From an uncultured Pelagibacteraceae bacterium (GTDB lineage: Bacteria; Pseudomonadota; Alphaproteobacteria; Pelagibacterales; Pelagibacteraceae), in assembly GCA_902611175.1 (NCBI GenBank), contig CACLYQ010000004.1:1-54694 (forward strand): a DNA stretch of 54,694 nucleotides, given 5' to 3'. The notes beneath the pieces were generated by a model. The model was not told the origin of the DNA. It worked only from the letters and a program-made list of their open reading frames with translations, and did no database searches. Positions 3,683 through 25,173 of this stretch are shown in pieces (the first letter of the stretch is position 1; each line of letters begins with the position of its first letter). The translations under genes were made by a program, and so were the position numbers.

Positions 3683-4886
3683 ATTTTAAAGTTTGAATCG
3701 TATCTAATTTTGCTGCTTTAGAGGCTGGGTAAATTGAAACAATTGAAGTTGTTATTATGGAGCATAAAGCAATTAAGAATATTGAATTAACATTTATTTC
3801 TGATGGAAGAGTACTTAAAAAATAAATTTCCTCTGGAAATAATGTAATATCAAACGTATTAGAAATAAACTTCCTAATATCTTCAATATAGTATGAAAAT
3901 AAAGTCCCTAATAAAATACCAAATAAAGTTGCTGTAGTACCAATAATAAATCCAACAAAAAAGAAAATTTTTTTAATAGATGCATTTGTTACTCCAATGG
4001 ATTTTAAAATTCCTATATCTCTCGTTTTGTTTTTAACTAATATAGTTAAGCCAGAAATAATATTAAATGCAGCTACAATTATTATTAAAGATAAGATTAT
4101 AAACATTACATTTCTTTCAACTTTTAAAGCTGAAAATAATGACTCATTTAAATCTGCCCATGTGTAAACATAAGCTTCGGGAAATAACACTAATAAATTT
4201 TTTTTATAAGATTCAATATTTTTTGGATCTTTAAAATAGTACTCAGTAAATCTATTATCCTTATTTTTATCAAAAAAATCTTCTAATGTACTAAGATTGA
4301 CATATGCTACATTCTCATTAAATTCTCCTATTCCACTATCAAATATTGAAATTACTTCAAATTTATATTGTCTTGGAAAAGACCCTACAATTGTTTGGAC
4401 ACCGGATGGTGACATTATTGTTATTTGATCACCAATATCTATATTAAGTAAGAAGCTTAAATCCTTACCAATTGAAATTGAATTATTTTTCAAATCTTTT
4501 GAACCAAAATATTTTTGATTATTTGATATTTCTAGTTTCTTAAAATCATTTTTCAAATATCCTTTTAAAAGTACACCCTTTGTATTTAGTTTTGAGAGAA
4601 TTACTGCTTCTCCATCATTTGAAACAATGCCTTTCGCAAAATCTATATCAGGCATATAAACTAAAGGCTTGTTGTATGGTTTTACAACAGCATGAGCGTT
4701 AAAACCTACAATTTTATTTATTAGCTCTGTTCTAAAACCATTCATTACTGACATAACAATTATTAGTACAGCTACTCCCAATCCAATACCAATGAAAGAA
4801 AAAATAGAGATTACATTTAAAAAGCCGTCTTTTTTTCTAGCTTTTAAAAATCTAAATATAATCTCTTTTTCTAGTTGTGAAATCAA
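3675..4886 (-). CDS. lolC: Lipoprotein-releasing system permease LolC/LolE family
   Basis: Membrane subunit of the Lol lipoprotein-release transporter (403 residues). It has the MacB/LolC layout: a first membrane helix at about 25-50, a large periplasmic domain to about residue 260, then three C-terminal helices of the FtsX type, with ILKSIGVTNASIKKIF as the conserved cytoplasmic coupling segment. The start appears to be TTG at 4886, because no ATG lies before the conserved FLKARKKDGF segment; it overlaps the proS stop as TTGA. Only one permease gene is seen, so it probably works as a homodimer (LolF-like) rather than a LolC-LolE pair; that is inference. Confidence 0.9.
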   Translation of the reverse strand: MISQLEKEIIFRFLKARKKDGFLNVISIFSFIGIGLGVAVLIIVMSVMNGFRTELINKIVGFNAHAVVKPYNKPLVYMPDIDFAKGIVSNDGEAVILSKLNTKGVLLKGYLKNDFKKLEISNNQKYFGSKDLKNNSISIGKDLSFLLNIDIGDQITIMSPSGVQTIVGSFPRQYKFEVISIFDSGIGEFNENVAYVNLSTLEDFFDKNKDNRFTEYYFKDPKNIESYKKNLLVLFPEAYVYTWADLNESLFSALKVERNVMFIILSLIIIVAAFNIISGLTILVKNKTRDIGILKSIGVTNASIKKIFFFVGFIIGTTATLFGILLGTLFSYYIEDIRKFISNTFDITLFPEEIYFLSTLPSEINVNSIFLIALCSIITTSIVSIYPASKAAKLDTIQTLKYE

Positions 4887-6456: not shown

Positions 6457-8115
6457 TTAAATCCTCACTAAATTTATATTCGTATAAGGTCTTTTTCCTA
6501 ATTTTTCTTTTGTGTACTTTCTGCAAGTTATCTTAAGAGCATCAATTAAATTTGATTCTTGTTTTTTGTTATTTAAAGAAAAAGTTTTTGCTGTTTTTTC
6601 AATTTCTTCTTCAAGATTAAATTTGAATTCATCTTTTTCGTATATTGGTAAACCTCTAAATGTTAATAAAGGTTTGTTATGAATATTGCCATTTGGCGTT
6701 ATTACTATTGTTGCTTCTATTAATCCATTAGTAGACAAATTTTTACGCTCTTTGATAGATTGAGCATCTTCTTCAACACTAATTGAACCATCTACGTAAA
6801 GTCTTCCACTTGGTGCTTTATCATATACTTCAGGTTTATCGCCTGGACAGATTCTTACTATATCACCATTTTCTACTCTAACTGGATATGGAACTTGCAT
6901 TTCTTTAGCAAAATTTATGTGTTCAATCATATGTCGATGTTCACCATGAACAGGTATAACAGATCTTGGTTTTATCCAGTCATACATATCCTTTAAATCT
7001 TCTCTATTTGGATGTCCTGATACGTGAATGAATTCACTATCTTCTGAAATTACTTCTATGCCTTCTCTAACTAATTGATTGTGAAGTTTATATAATTTTT
7101 TTTCATTACCTGGAATAATTTTTGAAGAAAATATAACTGCATCGCCTCCCTCAATAAAAACATCCGGATGTGTGTAATTTGAAATACGGTTCATTGCACC
7201 CATTGGTTCTCCTTGGCTACCTGTACATAGGTAAACAATTCTTTCCCTTGAGATATTTTTTGAATCTCTTGCATCAAGTGGTTCAATAACATTTTGTAAG
7301 TAACCGCATTGCCTAGCAGCTTTATAAATTCTATGCATTGAACGGCCGACCAAAGCGATTTGCCTGCCTGTTTTTTCAGCACAATAAAAGGCTGACTCCA
7401 TTCTTGCTACATTTGAAGCGAAAGATGTAATAATTATTCTTTTCTTTAATCTTTCCATTATCTTTAGCATATTTTTTCTTACATCAAGCTCAGATCCTGC
7501 TCGTCCCGCACTAAATACATTTGTTGAGTCACATATCATTGTCAAAACACCTTCTTCGCCAATTTCCTTTAATCTTTTTGAATTCATATTATCTCCAGTT
7601 AATGGATCTGGATCACACTTCCAATCACCAGTGTGTAATATATTCCCAACAGGTGTTTCAATTTTTAGTCCATTAGGTTCTAGTATAGAATGTGTTAATG
7701 TAATAAATTCAATTTTAAAAGGACTTAAATCTACAATGCTGTTTAATTGAACAACTTCTAGATATCCTGTTACATCAATTTTTTTTTCCTTAAATTTTTC
7801 TGAAATTAATACTGAAGTAAATGGAGTAGCAAATATCTTACATTTTAGTTTTGGCCATATATGAGCAATTGCACCAATATGATCTTCATGTGCGTGAGTT
7901 AGAACAATACCTAATAGGTCATCTTTTTTATCAACAATAAATCCAGGGTCGGGATATATTAAATCAACTCCAGGAATTGCATCATCTGCAAAAGTAACTC
8001 CTATGTCTACAATTATCCATTTTCTATTATCTGGATTTCCATAGGCGAATAAATTCATATTCATCCCAATTTCTCCAGATCCCCCTAAAGGGCAAAAAAT
8101 TAATTCTTCTTTCAT
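6457..8115 (-). CDS. rnj: Ribonuclease J
   Basis: Metallo-beta-lactamase/beta-CASP exo- and endoribonuclease for mRNA decay and rRNA maturation (552 residues). The zinc motif HAHEDHIG is at about 74-81, followed by the HTGDWKCDP segment (about 162-170), the beta-CASP region, and the VSGHPNREDL and PVHGEHRHM histidine motifs (about 367 and 395). The C-terminal domain follows. The start ATG overlaps the coaX stop as ATGA. The neighbourhood birA-coaX-rnj-DUF1467-proS downstream of nuoN is the standard alphaproteobacterial order, which supports the assignment. Confidence 0.96.
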   Translation of the reverse strand: MKEELIFCPLGGSGEIGMNMNLFAYGNPDNRKWIIVDIGVTFADDAIPGVDLIYPDPGFIVDKKDDLLGIVLTHAHEDHIGAIAHIWPKLKCKIFATPFTSVLISEKFKEKKIDVTGYLEVVQLNSIVDLSPFKIEFITLTHSILEPNGLKIETPVGNILHTGDWKCDPDPLTGDNMNSKRLKEIGEEGVLTMICDSTNVFSAGRAGSELDVRKNMLKIMERLKKRIIITSFASNVARMESAFYCAEKTGRQIALVGRSMHRIYKAARQCGYLQNVIEPLDARDSKNISRERIVYLCTGSQGEPMGAMNRISNYTHPDVFIEGGDAVIFSSKIIPGNEKKLYKLHNQLVREGIEVISEDSEFIHVSGHPNREDLKDMYDWIKPRSVIPVHGEHRHMIEHINFAKEMQVPYPVRVENGDIVRICPGDKPEVYDKAPSGRLYVDGSISVEEDAQSIKERKNLSTNGLIEATIVITPNGNIHNKPLLTFRGLPIYEKDEFKFNLEEEIEKTAKTFSLNNKKQESNLIDALKITCRKYTKEKLGKRPYTNINLVRI

Positions 8116-23411: not shown

Positions 23412-23487
23412 TGGTGGGCAGTAAAGGACTCGAACCTTTGACCCCCTCGGTGTAAACGAGATGCTCTACCAACTGAGCTAACCGCCC
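23412..23487 (-). tRNA. tRNA-Val (UAC anticodon)
   Basis: Read on the minus strand, 76 nt including CCA. The acceptor stem GGGCGGT pairs with ACTGCCC, the D-arm is GCTC..GAGC, the anticodon loop TTTACAC gives UAC for valine, and the T-loop is TTCGAGT. From the anticodon loop to its 5' end, plus five bases upstream, this gene is duplicated exactly at 25081-25123. A good sigma-70-like promoter lies just upstream at 23508-23535. Confidence 0.96.
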
Positions 23488-23492
23488 AAAAC
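23450..23492 (-). repeat. 43-bp direct repeat, left copy (5' half of tRNA-Val)
   Basis: Identical over 43 bases to 25081-25123. It covers the tRNA-Val anticodon loop, D-arm and 5' acceptor strand, and five bases upstream of the tRNA. The match stops sharply at both ends. It is interpreted as the attachment-site core of an integrated element (attL). This copy is within the intact tRNA gene. Confidence 0.9.
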
Positions 23493-23507
23493 CAAAAAGT
23501 AACGTGT

Positions 23508-23535
23508 TTTATATCTTTTAGAACGTGTAGGTCAA
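23508..23535 (-). promoter_or_regulatory. Predicted promoter of the tRNA-Val-tRNA-Asp transcript
   Basis: On the minus strand, TTGACC (23530-23535), a 16-bp spacer and TATAAA (23508-23513). The expected start site is 10-15 bases before the tRNA-Val 5' end at 23487. It lies on the island side of the left repeat, so the present tRNA promoter would have been brought by the inserted DNA. Confidence 0.6.
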
Positions 23536-23577
23536 GATTTATTACCCTTGAAAAATGGCTAAAAAATTTATTTTTGT

Positions 23578-23604
23578 TACTCAACTGTGCATACAGTGTG
23601 CAAA
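23578..23604. repeat. 27-bp direct repeat, left copy
   Basis: Identical over 27 bases to 24993-25019, same orientation. It contains a tandem pair of the hexamer TGTGCA at an 11-base period (TGTGCATACAGTGTGCA), and the inner inverted pair CTGT/ACAG on the minus strand. It lies 85 bp to the right of the left 43-bp repeat. It could be an integrase arm-type site or a regulatory operator. Confidence 0.85.
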
Positions 23605-23689
23605 AGTTTTTTTAAAGATTATCAACATTATTTTAAAAATACAACGGAACCGGACAGCGTATAGTTTTCATGAATTTAAGCAATTAATC

Positions 23690-24922
23690 TTAATTTTTTA
23701 ACTCACTGTAAAAAGCTTTTTGTGAATTTTGATTTTGAGCAATAAATTTCTTTATTTCTTTGCCTGTCATCCAACAATCTAAATAGACAGTTGCTTCAGT
23801 TATTAATGTTCCAAGTTCCTTTTTTTTCATCACTCTTCTATTTGGAGTTAAAAACTTAATTTGATTTGCTTTCCCAAAAATTTGTAAAACTGAAGATTTA
23901 ATTCCAAAGTTAAAACTCTCAACTCCTTCTTTTTGAATTTTTGAAACTGCAACACCTACTACATTTCCAAATTCATTAATTATTGGGCCTCCGCTATTTC
24001 CTGAGTTCATAGCAGCATCAGTTTGAAATTCTGCATAATTGTCTCCTAATCCAGCTAAAGCTGTTATAGTTCCACTTGTCGCTTTAATAGAGGCACTTAT
24101 TTTTTTACCTAATGGATATCCAGCTACAATAACTTCCTCTAATAAACTACCATCTTCATCTGATATAGAATAAACTTTTTTGGGTTTAATTTTAGATTTT
24201 ATTATTGCGAGATCATTAACTTTGTCTACAGCTAAAACTTTTGAGTCAACCTCATTTCCGTTGTGTAAAGCTTTTATAATCGAACAACCATCGATAACAT
24301 GATGATTAGTAACTATATGTCCACTTTCTGAAACAAAAAAACCAGTTCCTGATGATGCTGCAATAATTTCATCATCTTTTATATTAGGCAGACTCTCAGT
24401 TTGACCAGATAATTGTGCATATAATTTTTCCGAACCGGAACAAATAGCATCAAAATCTTTATAATAAGTTGTTACACCAAATTTATTTGAATTTCTTATT
24501 ACATCAAACTGTCCAACATAAGTTGAATTAGCAATTGAAAATCTAGTTTTAGAACCTTTAATATTTGTAATTGATCCATCGCTATGTGTTATAGAGTTAT
24601 CTTTTGATTTAAGTAAAATTGTTAAATTATCTTTAGAAATTTTCAGATTATTAAGACTTTGCTCATACAAAGGTGATCTATTATACGCATGGCTCCAGTT
24701 TTCTAGATCTATAGATACTATGTTTGTTCCATGACCAGTAACAATAAAATCCTCATAAAACCTTTCTTGTCTTTTTTTTAAGACATCAGCATTTGGAAAA
24801 TTCTTATTATATCCTTCTGATGTTAAAATACCTTCACATGAAATAGAAATAGACCAAGGTTCACTACTTGCTGAAGTAATTTGAAGCGAAAAAACTAATA
24901 AAATTATAAATATTCTTTTCAC
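23690..24922 (-). CDS. Secreted trypsin-like serine protease (DegP-type catalytic domain, no PDZ)
   Basis: A 410-residue exported protein with a signal peptide (MKRIFIILLVFSLQITSASS). Residues about 21-180 form a domain I do not recognise. A trypsin-like domain follows, with the triad His208 (TNHHVIDGC), Asp237 (KVNDLAII) and Ser310 (GNSGGP). There is no PDZ domain; the last 60 residues carry one Cys (LDCW). It should act in the periplasm or outside the cell on unknown substrates. It is the only gene between the tRNA-Val direct repeats, directly downstream of the lon operon. A possible promoter lies at 24989-25018. It resembles proteases of the Do/trypsin_2 class but is not a standard DegP, which has one or two PDZ domains. 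Confidence 0.88.
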   Translation of the reverse strand: MKRIFIILLVFSLQITSASSEPWSISISCEGILTSEGYNKNFPNADVLKKRQERFYEDFIVTGHGTNIVSIDLENWSHAYNRSPLYEQSLNNLKISKDNLTILLKSKDNSITHSDGSITNIKGSKTRFSIANSTYVGQFDVIRNSNKFGVTTYYKDFDAICSGSEKLYAQLSGQTESLPNIKDDEIIAASSGTGFFVSESGHIVTNHHVIDGCSIIKALHNGNEVDSKVLAVDKVNDLAIIKSKIKPKKVYSISDEDGSLLEEVIVAGYPLGKKISASIKATSGTITALAGLGDNYAEFQTDAAMNSGNSGGPIINEFGNVVGVAVSKIQKEGVESFNFGIKSSVLQIFGKANQIKFLTPNRRVMKKKELGTLITEATVYLDCWMTGKEIKKFIAQNQNSQKAFYSELKN

Positions 24923-24988
24923 GATACAAGATTATCAAATCTTTAACATAGAGTCTTCAGCAAAAAAATGTAACGAGATTCTAGATTT

Positions 24989-25018
24989 TTTATACTCAAC
25001 TGTGCATACAGTGTGCAA
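24989..25018 (-). promoter_or_regulatory. Possible promoter of the island protease gene
   Basis: On the minus strand, TTGCAC (25013-25018), an 18-bp spacer and TATAAA (24989-24994). Nearly the whole -35 and spacer are the 27-bp repeat. The left copy of the repeat is followed by TAACAA at the same distance, a much poorer -10, so only the right copy looks like an active promoter. Confidence 0.4.
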
Positions 25019-25019
25019 A
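24993..25019. repeat. 27-bp direct repeat, right copy
   Basis: Second copy of the 27-bp repeat, 61 bp to the left of the right 43-bp repeat, so the two copies sit inside the island near each end. On the minus strand it supplies TTGCAC as a possible -35, with TATAAA beginning at its downstream edge 18 bases later, ahead of the protease gene. Confidence 0.85.
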
Positions 25020-25080
25020 TACGAATTATAAATTAAAAAAAGTGTTTAGAAGAAATGATTAATTTTAAATAAAATTAGTT

Positions 25081-25123
25081 GTGTAAACGAGATGCTCTAC
25101 CAACTGAGCTAACCGCCCAAAAC
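25081..25123 (-). repeat. 43-bp direct repeat, right copy (orphan 5' half of tRNA-Val)
   Basis: Exact copy of 23450-23492 in the same orientation, but without the 3' half of the tRNA. The flanking bases differ at once on both sides. It lies 42 nt from the lon stop codon. It is interpreted as the displaced 5' half of the original tRNA-Val gene, left behind when an element inserted (attR). The tRNA 5' end would be at 25118. Confidence 0.9.
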
Positions 25124-25145
25124 ATGGTACTATTACATCAAGGTT

Positions 25146-25173
25146 ATTATAATGTAAATTGTTTATTACTGAA
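25146..25173 (-). promoter_or_regulatory. Possible original tRNA-Val promoter, now facing the orphan tRNA half
   Basis: On the minus strand, an exact TATAAT (25146-25151) with a weak TTCAGT (25168-25173) 16 bp upstream, overlapping the lon stop codon. The -10 lies 28 bp from the orphan tRNA 5' end (25118). If the island inserted into tRNA-Val, this was the ancestral tRNA promoter and would now read into the tRNA fragment and the island. Confidence 0.4.

Follow-up and report, generated by a model that had tools for sequence, protein, structure and literature searches.

The stretch of DNA analyzed here (the window, 54,694 nucleotides of contig CACLYQ010000004.1, assembly GCA_902611175.1) belongs to an uncultured Pelagibacteraceae bacterium and carries, beside a valine tRNA gene, a 1.6-kb insert with a single gene and no integrase, which is the subject of this work. 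Read on the minus strand, on which all window features given below lie, the order is lon, 42 bp, an orphan 5' part of tRNA-Val, the insert, an intact tRNA-Val(TAC), tRNA-Asp and nuoA. ARAGORN detected a single intact tRNA-Val(TAC), at 23412–23487 and adjoining tRNA-Asp, the other copy being only the orphan 5' part. Two direct copies of 43 bp, one within the intact tRNA (23450–23492) and the other next to lon (25081–25123, 42 bp from the lon stop at 25166), are identical at 43/43 positions and lie 1,631 bp apart from start to start. Each comprises positions 1–38 of tRNA-Val (38 bp) plus 5 bp of leader (GTTTT), and its tRNA part ends in the anticodon loop TTTACAC, flanked by the stem halves CTCG and CGAG. 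As the GTTTT leader is also present in the empty site described below, and the extent of leader sharing varies among other elements, the common core is the 38-bp tRNA half. The insert contains one large open reading frame (ORF), at 23690–24922, with a GTG start and coding for a protein of 410 amino acids with a Trypsin_2 match (PF13365, 4.4e-25) and a hydrophobic N-terminus, a signal peptide by inspection. No integrase was found in the ORF list of the 1,631-bp insert, nor did the insert hold phage structural, packaging or replication genes, this protease gene being its sole cargo; the only PF00589 match of the window genome sits on another contig. The initial annotation, made from the sequence alone, had described the exact repeats, the secreted protease gene, the intact tRNA to the left with the orphan 42 bp from lon, the lack of an integrase and a SAR11-type host, all of which were borne out, and had missed a second direct-repeat pair nested inside the first and a promoter-like pair ahead of the rebuilt tRNA-Val.

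Comparison of 30 nuoA loci, the window among them, revealed the site without the insert. In the four closest relatives (G018, G013, G039 and G027; about 98% protein identity in lon), lon lies directly before tRNA-Val, which is present in one copy, and when the joined window flanks were aligned with those of the four and of G023, the difference was exactly the insert. The repeat pair is therefore not a chance occurrence, since single-copy relatives lack exactly this segment. The comparison places the inferred crossover in the anticodon loop TTTACAC, with the intact tRNA as the tRNA-side product of the attachment site, its 5' half now supplied by the element, and the orphan copy as the far-side product.

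With up to 3 mismatches allowed, 279 of 399 genomes of the genus contained the tRNA-Val half, 14 of them in two copies; these 14 comprised ten inserts of 1.6–8.8 kb, three tandem duplications of 248 bp and one inverted copy. The duplications, of tRNA-Val plus tRNA-Asp (G038, G320 and G442; L114, L113 and L116), were dropped as elements, and so was G053 (L117), where a tRNA-Val copy in opposite orientation, with 3 mismatches in its 5' half, lies ~1.6 kb from the normal tRNA-Val/Asp pair. Eight of the ten inserts, that of the window included, have common ends and no integrase was seen in them. A right-end pattern searched over 84,980 genomes matched nine stretches, all from uncultured Pelagibacteraceae, of which six correspond to genomes already found and three are new elements (2,018, 1,666 and 1,950 bp; last gene common with G444); nine is a lower bound, as the pattern misses members such as G127. 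In total, 11 tRNA-Val elements of the window kind were collected, that of the window and ten others, mostly with differing cargo. Within each of them, ORFs longer than 52 amino acids run one way, and no integrase or integrase remnant was seen among the ORFs. The cargo consists of a relative of the window protease plus one gene in G134, three genes, one of them distantly trypsin-like, in G422, a PrsW-like protease with two further genes and DUF805 in G205, small proteins, some with signal-like N-termini, in G127, G408 and G444, and a mixed set with ABM and T5orf172 domains in G145. The protease domain is conserved across the cargo proteases and the N-terminal parts mostly differ; PADLOC matches of these proteases span chiefly that domain and do not count as evidence for a role in defence. 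Ordinary tandem duplication does occur at this locus, as the three 248-bp cases demonstrate, and the window repeats could be attributed to such an event or to an assembly chimera. We give this explanation next to no weight: the orphan has no 3' half, the insert is absent from empty sites, and the same architecture with different cargo recurs in independent genomes.

Inside each end of the elements lies a tandem pair of 11-bp iterons of the form KCACACT-N4-KCACA with few changes. In the window, the right pair (GCACACTGTATGCACAGTTGAG) occupies 23580–23601 and an identical left pair 24995–25016, with half-sites at 63 and 74 bp, counted from the 38-bp core. Such repeats are the arm sites of lambda-type integrases, and from their sequence and arrangement we read the tandem iterons as putative integrase arm-type sites. 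The ends also share a right-end box, TTTTTTAGCCATTTTT at 23551–23566 (as TTTTTAGCCATTTTT at 11/11 right ends), and a left-end box, AGAATCTCGTTAC at 24970–24982, which is invariant in 11/11 tRNA-Val elements and resembles the core sequence ATCTCGTTTAC. Throughout the 11 elements the distance between core and iterons is constant for the right pair and 51, 62 or 63 bp for the left pair, positions about one helical turn apart. A specific iteron pattern gave nine matches in 7 of the 399 genomes, every one in these elements; of the 13 matches that a broader pattern gave in eight genomes, 12 also belonged to these elements, and the remaining one fell at a tRNA-Gly insert described below. Moreover, the base before CAC, which defines what we call a dialect, covaries between left and right ends in 13 of 14 elements as scripted (permutation p 5e-5, relatedness ignored); the miss, G205, stems from a register choice of the script, and G165 was left out because the regular expression found nothing there. 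In G408, the right end is otherwise like that of its relatives, but all four half-sites read TCAC instead of GCAC. Of 20 rows compared for 18-mers shared between left and right ends, 11 exceeded the shuffle maximum, 5 equalled it and 4 (AG918E02, AG892I03, G011 and G027) stayed below it; not every repeat pair is significant alone.

The sequence upstream of the tRNA is also exchanged. At lon-adjacent loci, a TTTACW/TAATAG-like pair precedes tRNA-Val. In the window this native promoter-like pair (TTTACA/AATAGT, 25129–25158), found immediately ahead of tRNA-Val in empty relatives, has been left behind the orphan, after lon and cut off from tRNA-Val, and in its place the rebuilt tRNA is preceded by a promoter-like pair at 23508–23535 (TTGACC 23535–23530, TATAAA 23513–23508, 16-bp spacer). 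TTGAC and TATAA are present at 11/11 right ends. A like pair lies ahead of tRNA-Val in 13 of the 26 other loci read for which no second half is listed, so the TTGAC/TATAA pair may predate the element, being an older feature rather than an element-borne one. A promoter scan revealed no excess over shuffled sequences (8 versus a mean of 9.1); it admitted only second hexamers with T as their sixth base, and did not list the TTGACC/TATAAA pair of the window.

Occupancy of the site was mapped on a tree of lon, which adjoins it, for 68 of 82 assembled genomes (74 plus 8 added); two-copy genomes were taken in on purpose, so that the frequencies are not population estimates. Forty of the 68 sites were empty, 16 had a longer gap between lon and the tRNA, 11 carried window-kind elements and one was G380, treated below. 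Six genomes (G281, G336, G282, G031, G004 and G056) have 0.8–3.4 kb between lon and tRNA-Val with no recognisable orphan half, and possibly harbor old elements minus one end. The 11 occupied tips imply at least 10 changes of occupancy, 8 of them forced by starred branches, and sister pairs (G134/G018 and G422/G039) differ in occupancy. Occupied tips clustered on this tree no more than expected by chance, 214 of 500 shuffles giving as low a value. Empty sites with a single 43-bp copy and strains with different cargo between the same repeats, both named as support by the initial annotation, are thus at hand, and the contrary outcome, protease and repeats present in all relatives, is excluded by the relatives' loci and by the occupancy on the lon tree.

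Related elements were also detected at other tRNA genes. Matches to the window protease (E 0.001 or better, mostly weak) occurred in 167 of 200 relatives searched, and besides the window's own only nine reach at least 54% identity. One of these, in G134, is at tRNA-Val; the other eight were examined by context, and five lie in small tRNA-bounded inserts, those of G126, G145 and G153 giving no assignable insert. The inserts of G069, G165 and G151 are bounded by 3'-half repeats of tRNA-Thr(TGT), the G151 contig beginning inside the element; a tRNA-Met-like 5' half bounds the other two, in G011 and G027. Two tandem elements occupy tRNA-Thr in G151:C20 (L108), the outer one with the protease and the inner one with five small ORFs. 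Another cargo gene is shared between G127 (tRNA-Val) and G151 (tRNA-Thr) at 95.2% identity over 480 bp. The tRNA-Met-like locus was present in nine of ten genomes probed, with the 25-bp site unoccupied in G134 and G444 (one mismatch); the other seven loci showed no such site within the 300 bp read. The protease elements of G011 and G027 are identical at 1498 of 1502 positions (99.7%), in contrast to 1573/1739 and 1160/1266 (90.5–91.6%) in the flanking genes, and on the right side similarity drops at the anticodon-loop junction. Because the element is 99.7% identical against ~91% in the flanks, this comparison provides direct evidence that it has, to judge from the sequences, moved between species recently.

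These data also bear on the possibility that the whole locus was swapped by homologous recombination through its lon and nuo flanks, the tRNA halves being relics of one ancient insertion. SAR11 recombines freely, and the right ends are near identical within one host clade, as such exchange would have it. However, empty relatives keep exactly one copy, without a scar, related ends recur at other tRNAs within unrelated flanks, and the right-side step from 99.7% to ~91% coincides with the anticodon-loop junction, all of which makes this explanation very improbable.

A search of viral contigs with the 38-bp half returned 31 stretches, 28 of them with a G+C content (GC) of at least 0.58 and 16 with a complete tRNA-Val. 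Two AT-rich IMG/VR contigs, L145/L412 and L136/L413 (5.9 and 6.2 kb, GC 0.34), contain the exact 38-bp half as an orphan and encode integrases of 318 and 317 amino acids (PF00589 1.6e-14 and 6.4e-15, PHROG 1) with 87% mutual identity. The integrase gene lies just past the left arm, right where the elements carry their cargo, and the left half-sites are 63 and 74 bp from the core, as in the window and G408. The dialects correspond as well: in G, L412 has AGCACA/AGCACA and the window TGCACA/TGCACA; in T, L413 and G408 both have GTCACA/GTCACT. Helicase- or primase-like proteins encoded on the contigs fit phages. An integrase-associated phage attachment site (attP) containing the core, which the initial annotation had proposed to look for, therefore exists in viral contigs, together with iterons in the dialects of the elements. 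The L412 integrase has two relatives among viral contigs and one strong relative in 41 SAR11-order genomes (49%, G010). In G010:C2, at ~91529 (L415/L425), the neighbours of this relative are GTACTCACTCTCGTACTCA iterons and what looks like the 3' part of a tRNA whose anticodon is CAT. The third relative in this set is L414 (66%), a viral contig with the tRNA-Gly(GCC) half, the target of an insert in G403. The latter (G403:C19, L411, ~631–2960) is 2.3 kb long; it has an orphan 5' half, arms of the GGCACA type and a gene resembling Phage_CP76, and gave no integrase match. Searches of viral contigs with arm patterns returned 0 stretches in some forms and 81 and 64 in others; on filtering 144 of them, one was kept, whose integrase match was weak and distant and which lacked a tRNA motif, and the 145th had no integrase match. 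By inspection, the arm patterns, for viral contigs and genomes alike, require last bases unlike those of the L412/L413 left arms, so their outcome is no evidence against prophages of this type elsewhere in the genomes.

A second combination of this type was detected around another integrase. Relatives of the G144 integrase occur in 4 of 399 genomes, one of them as a contig-end fragment, and none was found among viral contigs. Near each of these integrases lies the same tandem iteron layout, each with its own word: TCTACGCA in G144 and GGGATAC in G318 (both tRNA-Val, one side visible in the latter), TTGACTAC in G039 (tRNA-Thr), and GGTATGA and GGGTGCCGCA in G275. The prophage-like G144 insert resembles the window element in its tRNA-Val half, anticodon-loop junction and tandem 11-bp iterons, and differs in its length (8.8 kb), in encoding an integrase, a terminase small subunit (Terminase_2 match) and a DNA polymerase A (DNA_pol_A match), and in its dialect. 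The 6.2-kb insert of G380 encodes a type I restriction-modification system and no integrase, and has end sequences and TCTACGCA arms in common with the G144 insert; as judged from these ends, the two make a second pair of putative helper and hitcher. Helper and hitcher may be neighbours in G275:C24 (L241, ~7600–8000): an integrase gene there, accompanied by GGGTGCCGCA iterons, adjoins a tRNA 3' fragment, and directly against this fragment stands a TGTGATCAGATTGTGATA repeat similar to the CACA-type arms.

We estimate at roughly 0.84 the probability that the window insert is a non-autonomous integrative element, inserted precisely and site-specifically, and that a phage tyrosine integrase in the matching dialect moves it in trans. 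According to this explanation, the ends of the element would copy a phage attachment site, with the tRNA-Val 5' half as core and iteron arm sites on each side, and an integrase of the same dialect, such as those of L145/L412 and L136/L413, would be supplied in trans. A circular form of the element would then recombine with the anticodon loop of tRNA-Val. The rebuilt tRNA would take its 5' half and the sequence upstream of it from the element, and the native 5' half would stay as an orphan beside lon. From these comparisons we infer the action of an L412/L413-type integrase, the circular intermediate, the manner of transfer from cell to cell and a use for the promoter-like pair that the element carries. 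Several observations weigh against this explanation. The right arms differ, lying at -117/-109 in L412 and at a single -117 in L413 versus -115/-104 in the window, and outside the core and arms the ends of L412 and L413 resemble those of the elements little. Moreover, both contigs are fragments of 5.9–6.2 kb, and the helicase-like protein of L145 had no match in 50,697 phage records. The genomes used are incomplete (73% completeness for that of the window), and in element-bearing genomes of the CACA kind no extra integrase was seen. Those checked contained one integrase-family protein elsewhere, in a frame of 318–325 amino acids, or none, with the exception of G144; the enzyme would thus come from an infecting phage, or the elements would be stranded between infections.

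Integrase-less islands that retain their attachment sites have been described before as cis-mobilizable elements (CIMEs; PMC5704250), and 15 islands without integration modules are reported at ssrA in Dehalococcoides (PMC3146451). Like the window element, these islands keep left and right attachment sites (attL and attR) around cargo, at a tRNA-type target, and have no integration or transfer genes in the accounts available. The inserts could accordingly be decayed integrative elements, CIMEs in the strict sense, which lost the integrase, kept attL and attR, and today either stay fixed or travel solely in cis, together with a neighbour. The strict definition fits the anatomy (PMC5704250): the window element retains attL and attR and has no integration or transfer genes. 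In addition, the same tRNA is used by integrase-bearing elements or phages (G144, G318, L412 and L413), and the 16 of 68 genomes with a longer lon-tRNA gap, including the duplicated or inverted G442 and G053, are what worn elements would give. On the other side, 11/11 elements are compact, with ends abutting the cargo and no integrase among their ORFs. In 10 of the 11, the stretch from lon to the orphan half measures 51–54 bp (G205: 74 bp) and contains no tandem neighbour, and at the window locus no adjacent integrase-bearing element was found for CIME-type accretion, tandem neighbours occurring at tRNA-Thr in G151. Furthermore, an integrase-less element that is 99.7% identical in two species moved after losing its integrase, or without ever having one. 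Decay is thus an unlikely explanation, and of the two suggestions in the initial annotation, a non-autonomous cargo element fits these compact, integrase-less inserts with common ends better than a shrunken remnant does. Integrase-less islands flanked by attachment sites are known; what is added here is a family with phage-matched arm sites. Unlike the CIMEs and ssrA islands, it has iteron arms at four tRNA-type targets, cargo common across sites and arm-matching phage contigs, and it has moved recently without an adjacent integrase-bearing element.

Other systems share some of these traits. The microcin H47 island of Escherichia coli is likewise small and direct-repeat flanked, and excises and integrates although it encodes no recombinase; its repeats are long and imperfect instead of a tRNA half, and the available text of that report describes no family of arm sites (PMC3191183). 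Tycheposons, the tRNA-bounded cargo elements of streamlined marine bacteria, are summarized second-hand as 4–200 kb long and equipped with a tyrosine recombinase (PMC10872708), whereas the window element, of 1,631 bp and without a recombinase, has only the tRNA boundary in common with them. Miniature inverted-repeat transposable elements (MITEs) and clusters of attC sites lacking integron-integrases (CALINs) rely on a helper recombinase in trans, according to a review of helper-dependent elements (PMC11389934), but follow a transposase or integron logic with no tRNA target. The phage contigs match the elements in the exact 38-bp half, the left half-sites and the G or T dialect, and differ from them in carrying the integrase instead of cargo right after the left arm and in right-arm spacing. 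Integrative mobile elements exploiting Xer recombination (IMEX) insert at dif-like sites by means of the host XerC/D, unlike the window element, whose target is a tRNA anticodon loop. Marine phages with an integrase and a tRNA-matching attP are known (PMC3861242), and tyrosine recombinases and tRNA genes are reported beside one laterally transferred operon in marine single cells (PMC12416821). The open-access literature, subscription papers lying mostly outside the search, yielded no description of a SAR11 family of such integrase-less elements.

SAR11 bacteria are among the most abundant and have streamlined genomes, and the route by which accessory genes pass between their cells is an open question, for which a minimal integrase-less vehicle with recognisable ends offers a testable answer. 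We find it quite probable, if less so than the explanation of the window insert itself, that SAR11 cassettes of one to several genes are, as a class, non-autonomous parasites of phage tyrosine integrases. Their ends would imitate phage attP arms, with dialect and position specific to an integrase, and they would integrate into the anticodon loops of several tRNAs, each time restoring the tRNA from the half and upstream sequence that they bring along. Proteases, small secreted proteins and restriction systems would in this way pass from species to species on DNA that encodes no mobility gene. The iteron dialects would then predict which phage integrase moves which cargo, and, if true, these elements would be for phage-type tyrosine integrases the counterpart of MITEs for transposases.

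Finally, tRNA-Val halves were observed in phages of other kinds. A blastn search of phage isolates with the element gave 120 records, with only 4–5% query cover among the 20 listed, mostly at tRNA-Val. Two Synechococcus phages contain the exact 38-bp half, with an adjoining integrase in the one examined, and are counted as a parallel only; in Yong-M3-232 (L006, OM868076.1), the tRNA-Val 5' half lies at 4001–4038, just downstream of the integrase gene. Four high-GC viral contigs (L128, L138, L144 and L148) carry orphan tRNA-Val 5' halves with a TTGAC box no more than 50 bp upstream, and phages bearing a 5' half together with promoter-like sequence may be widespread.

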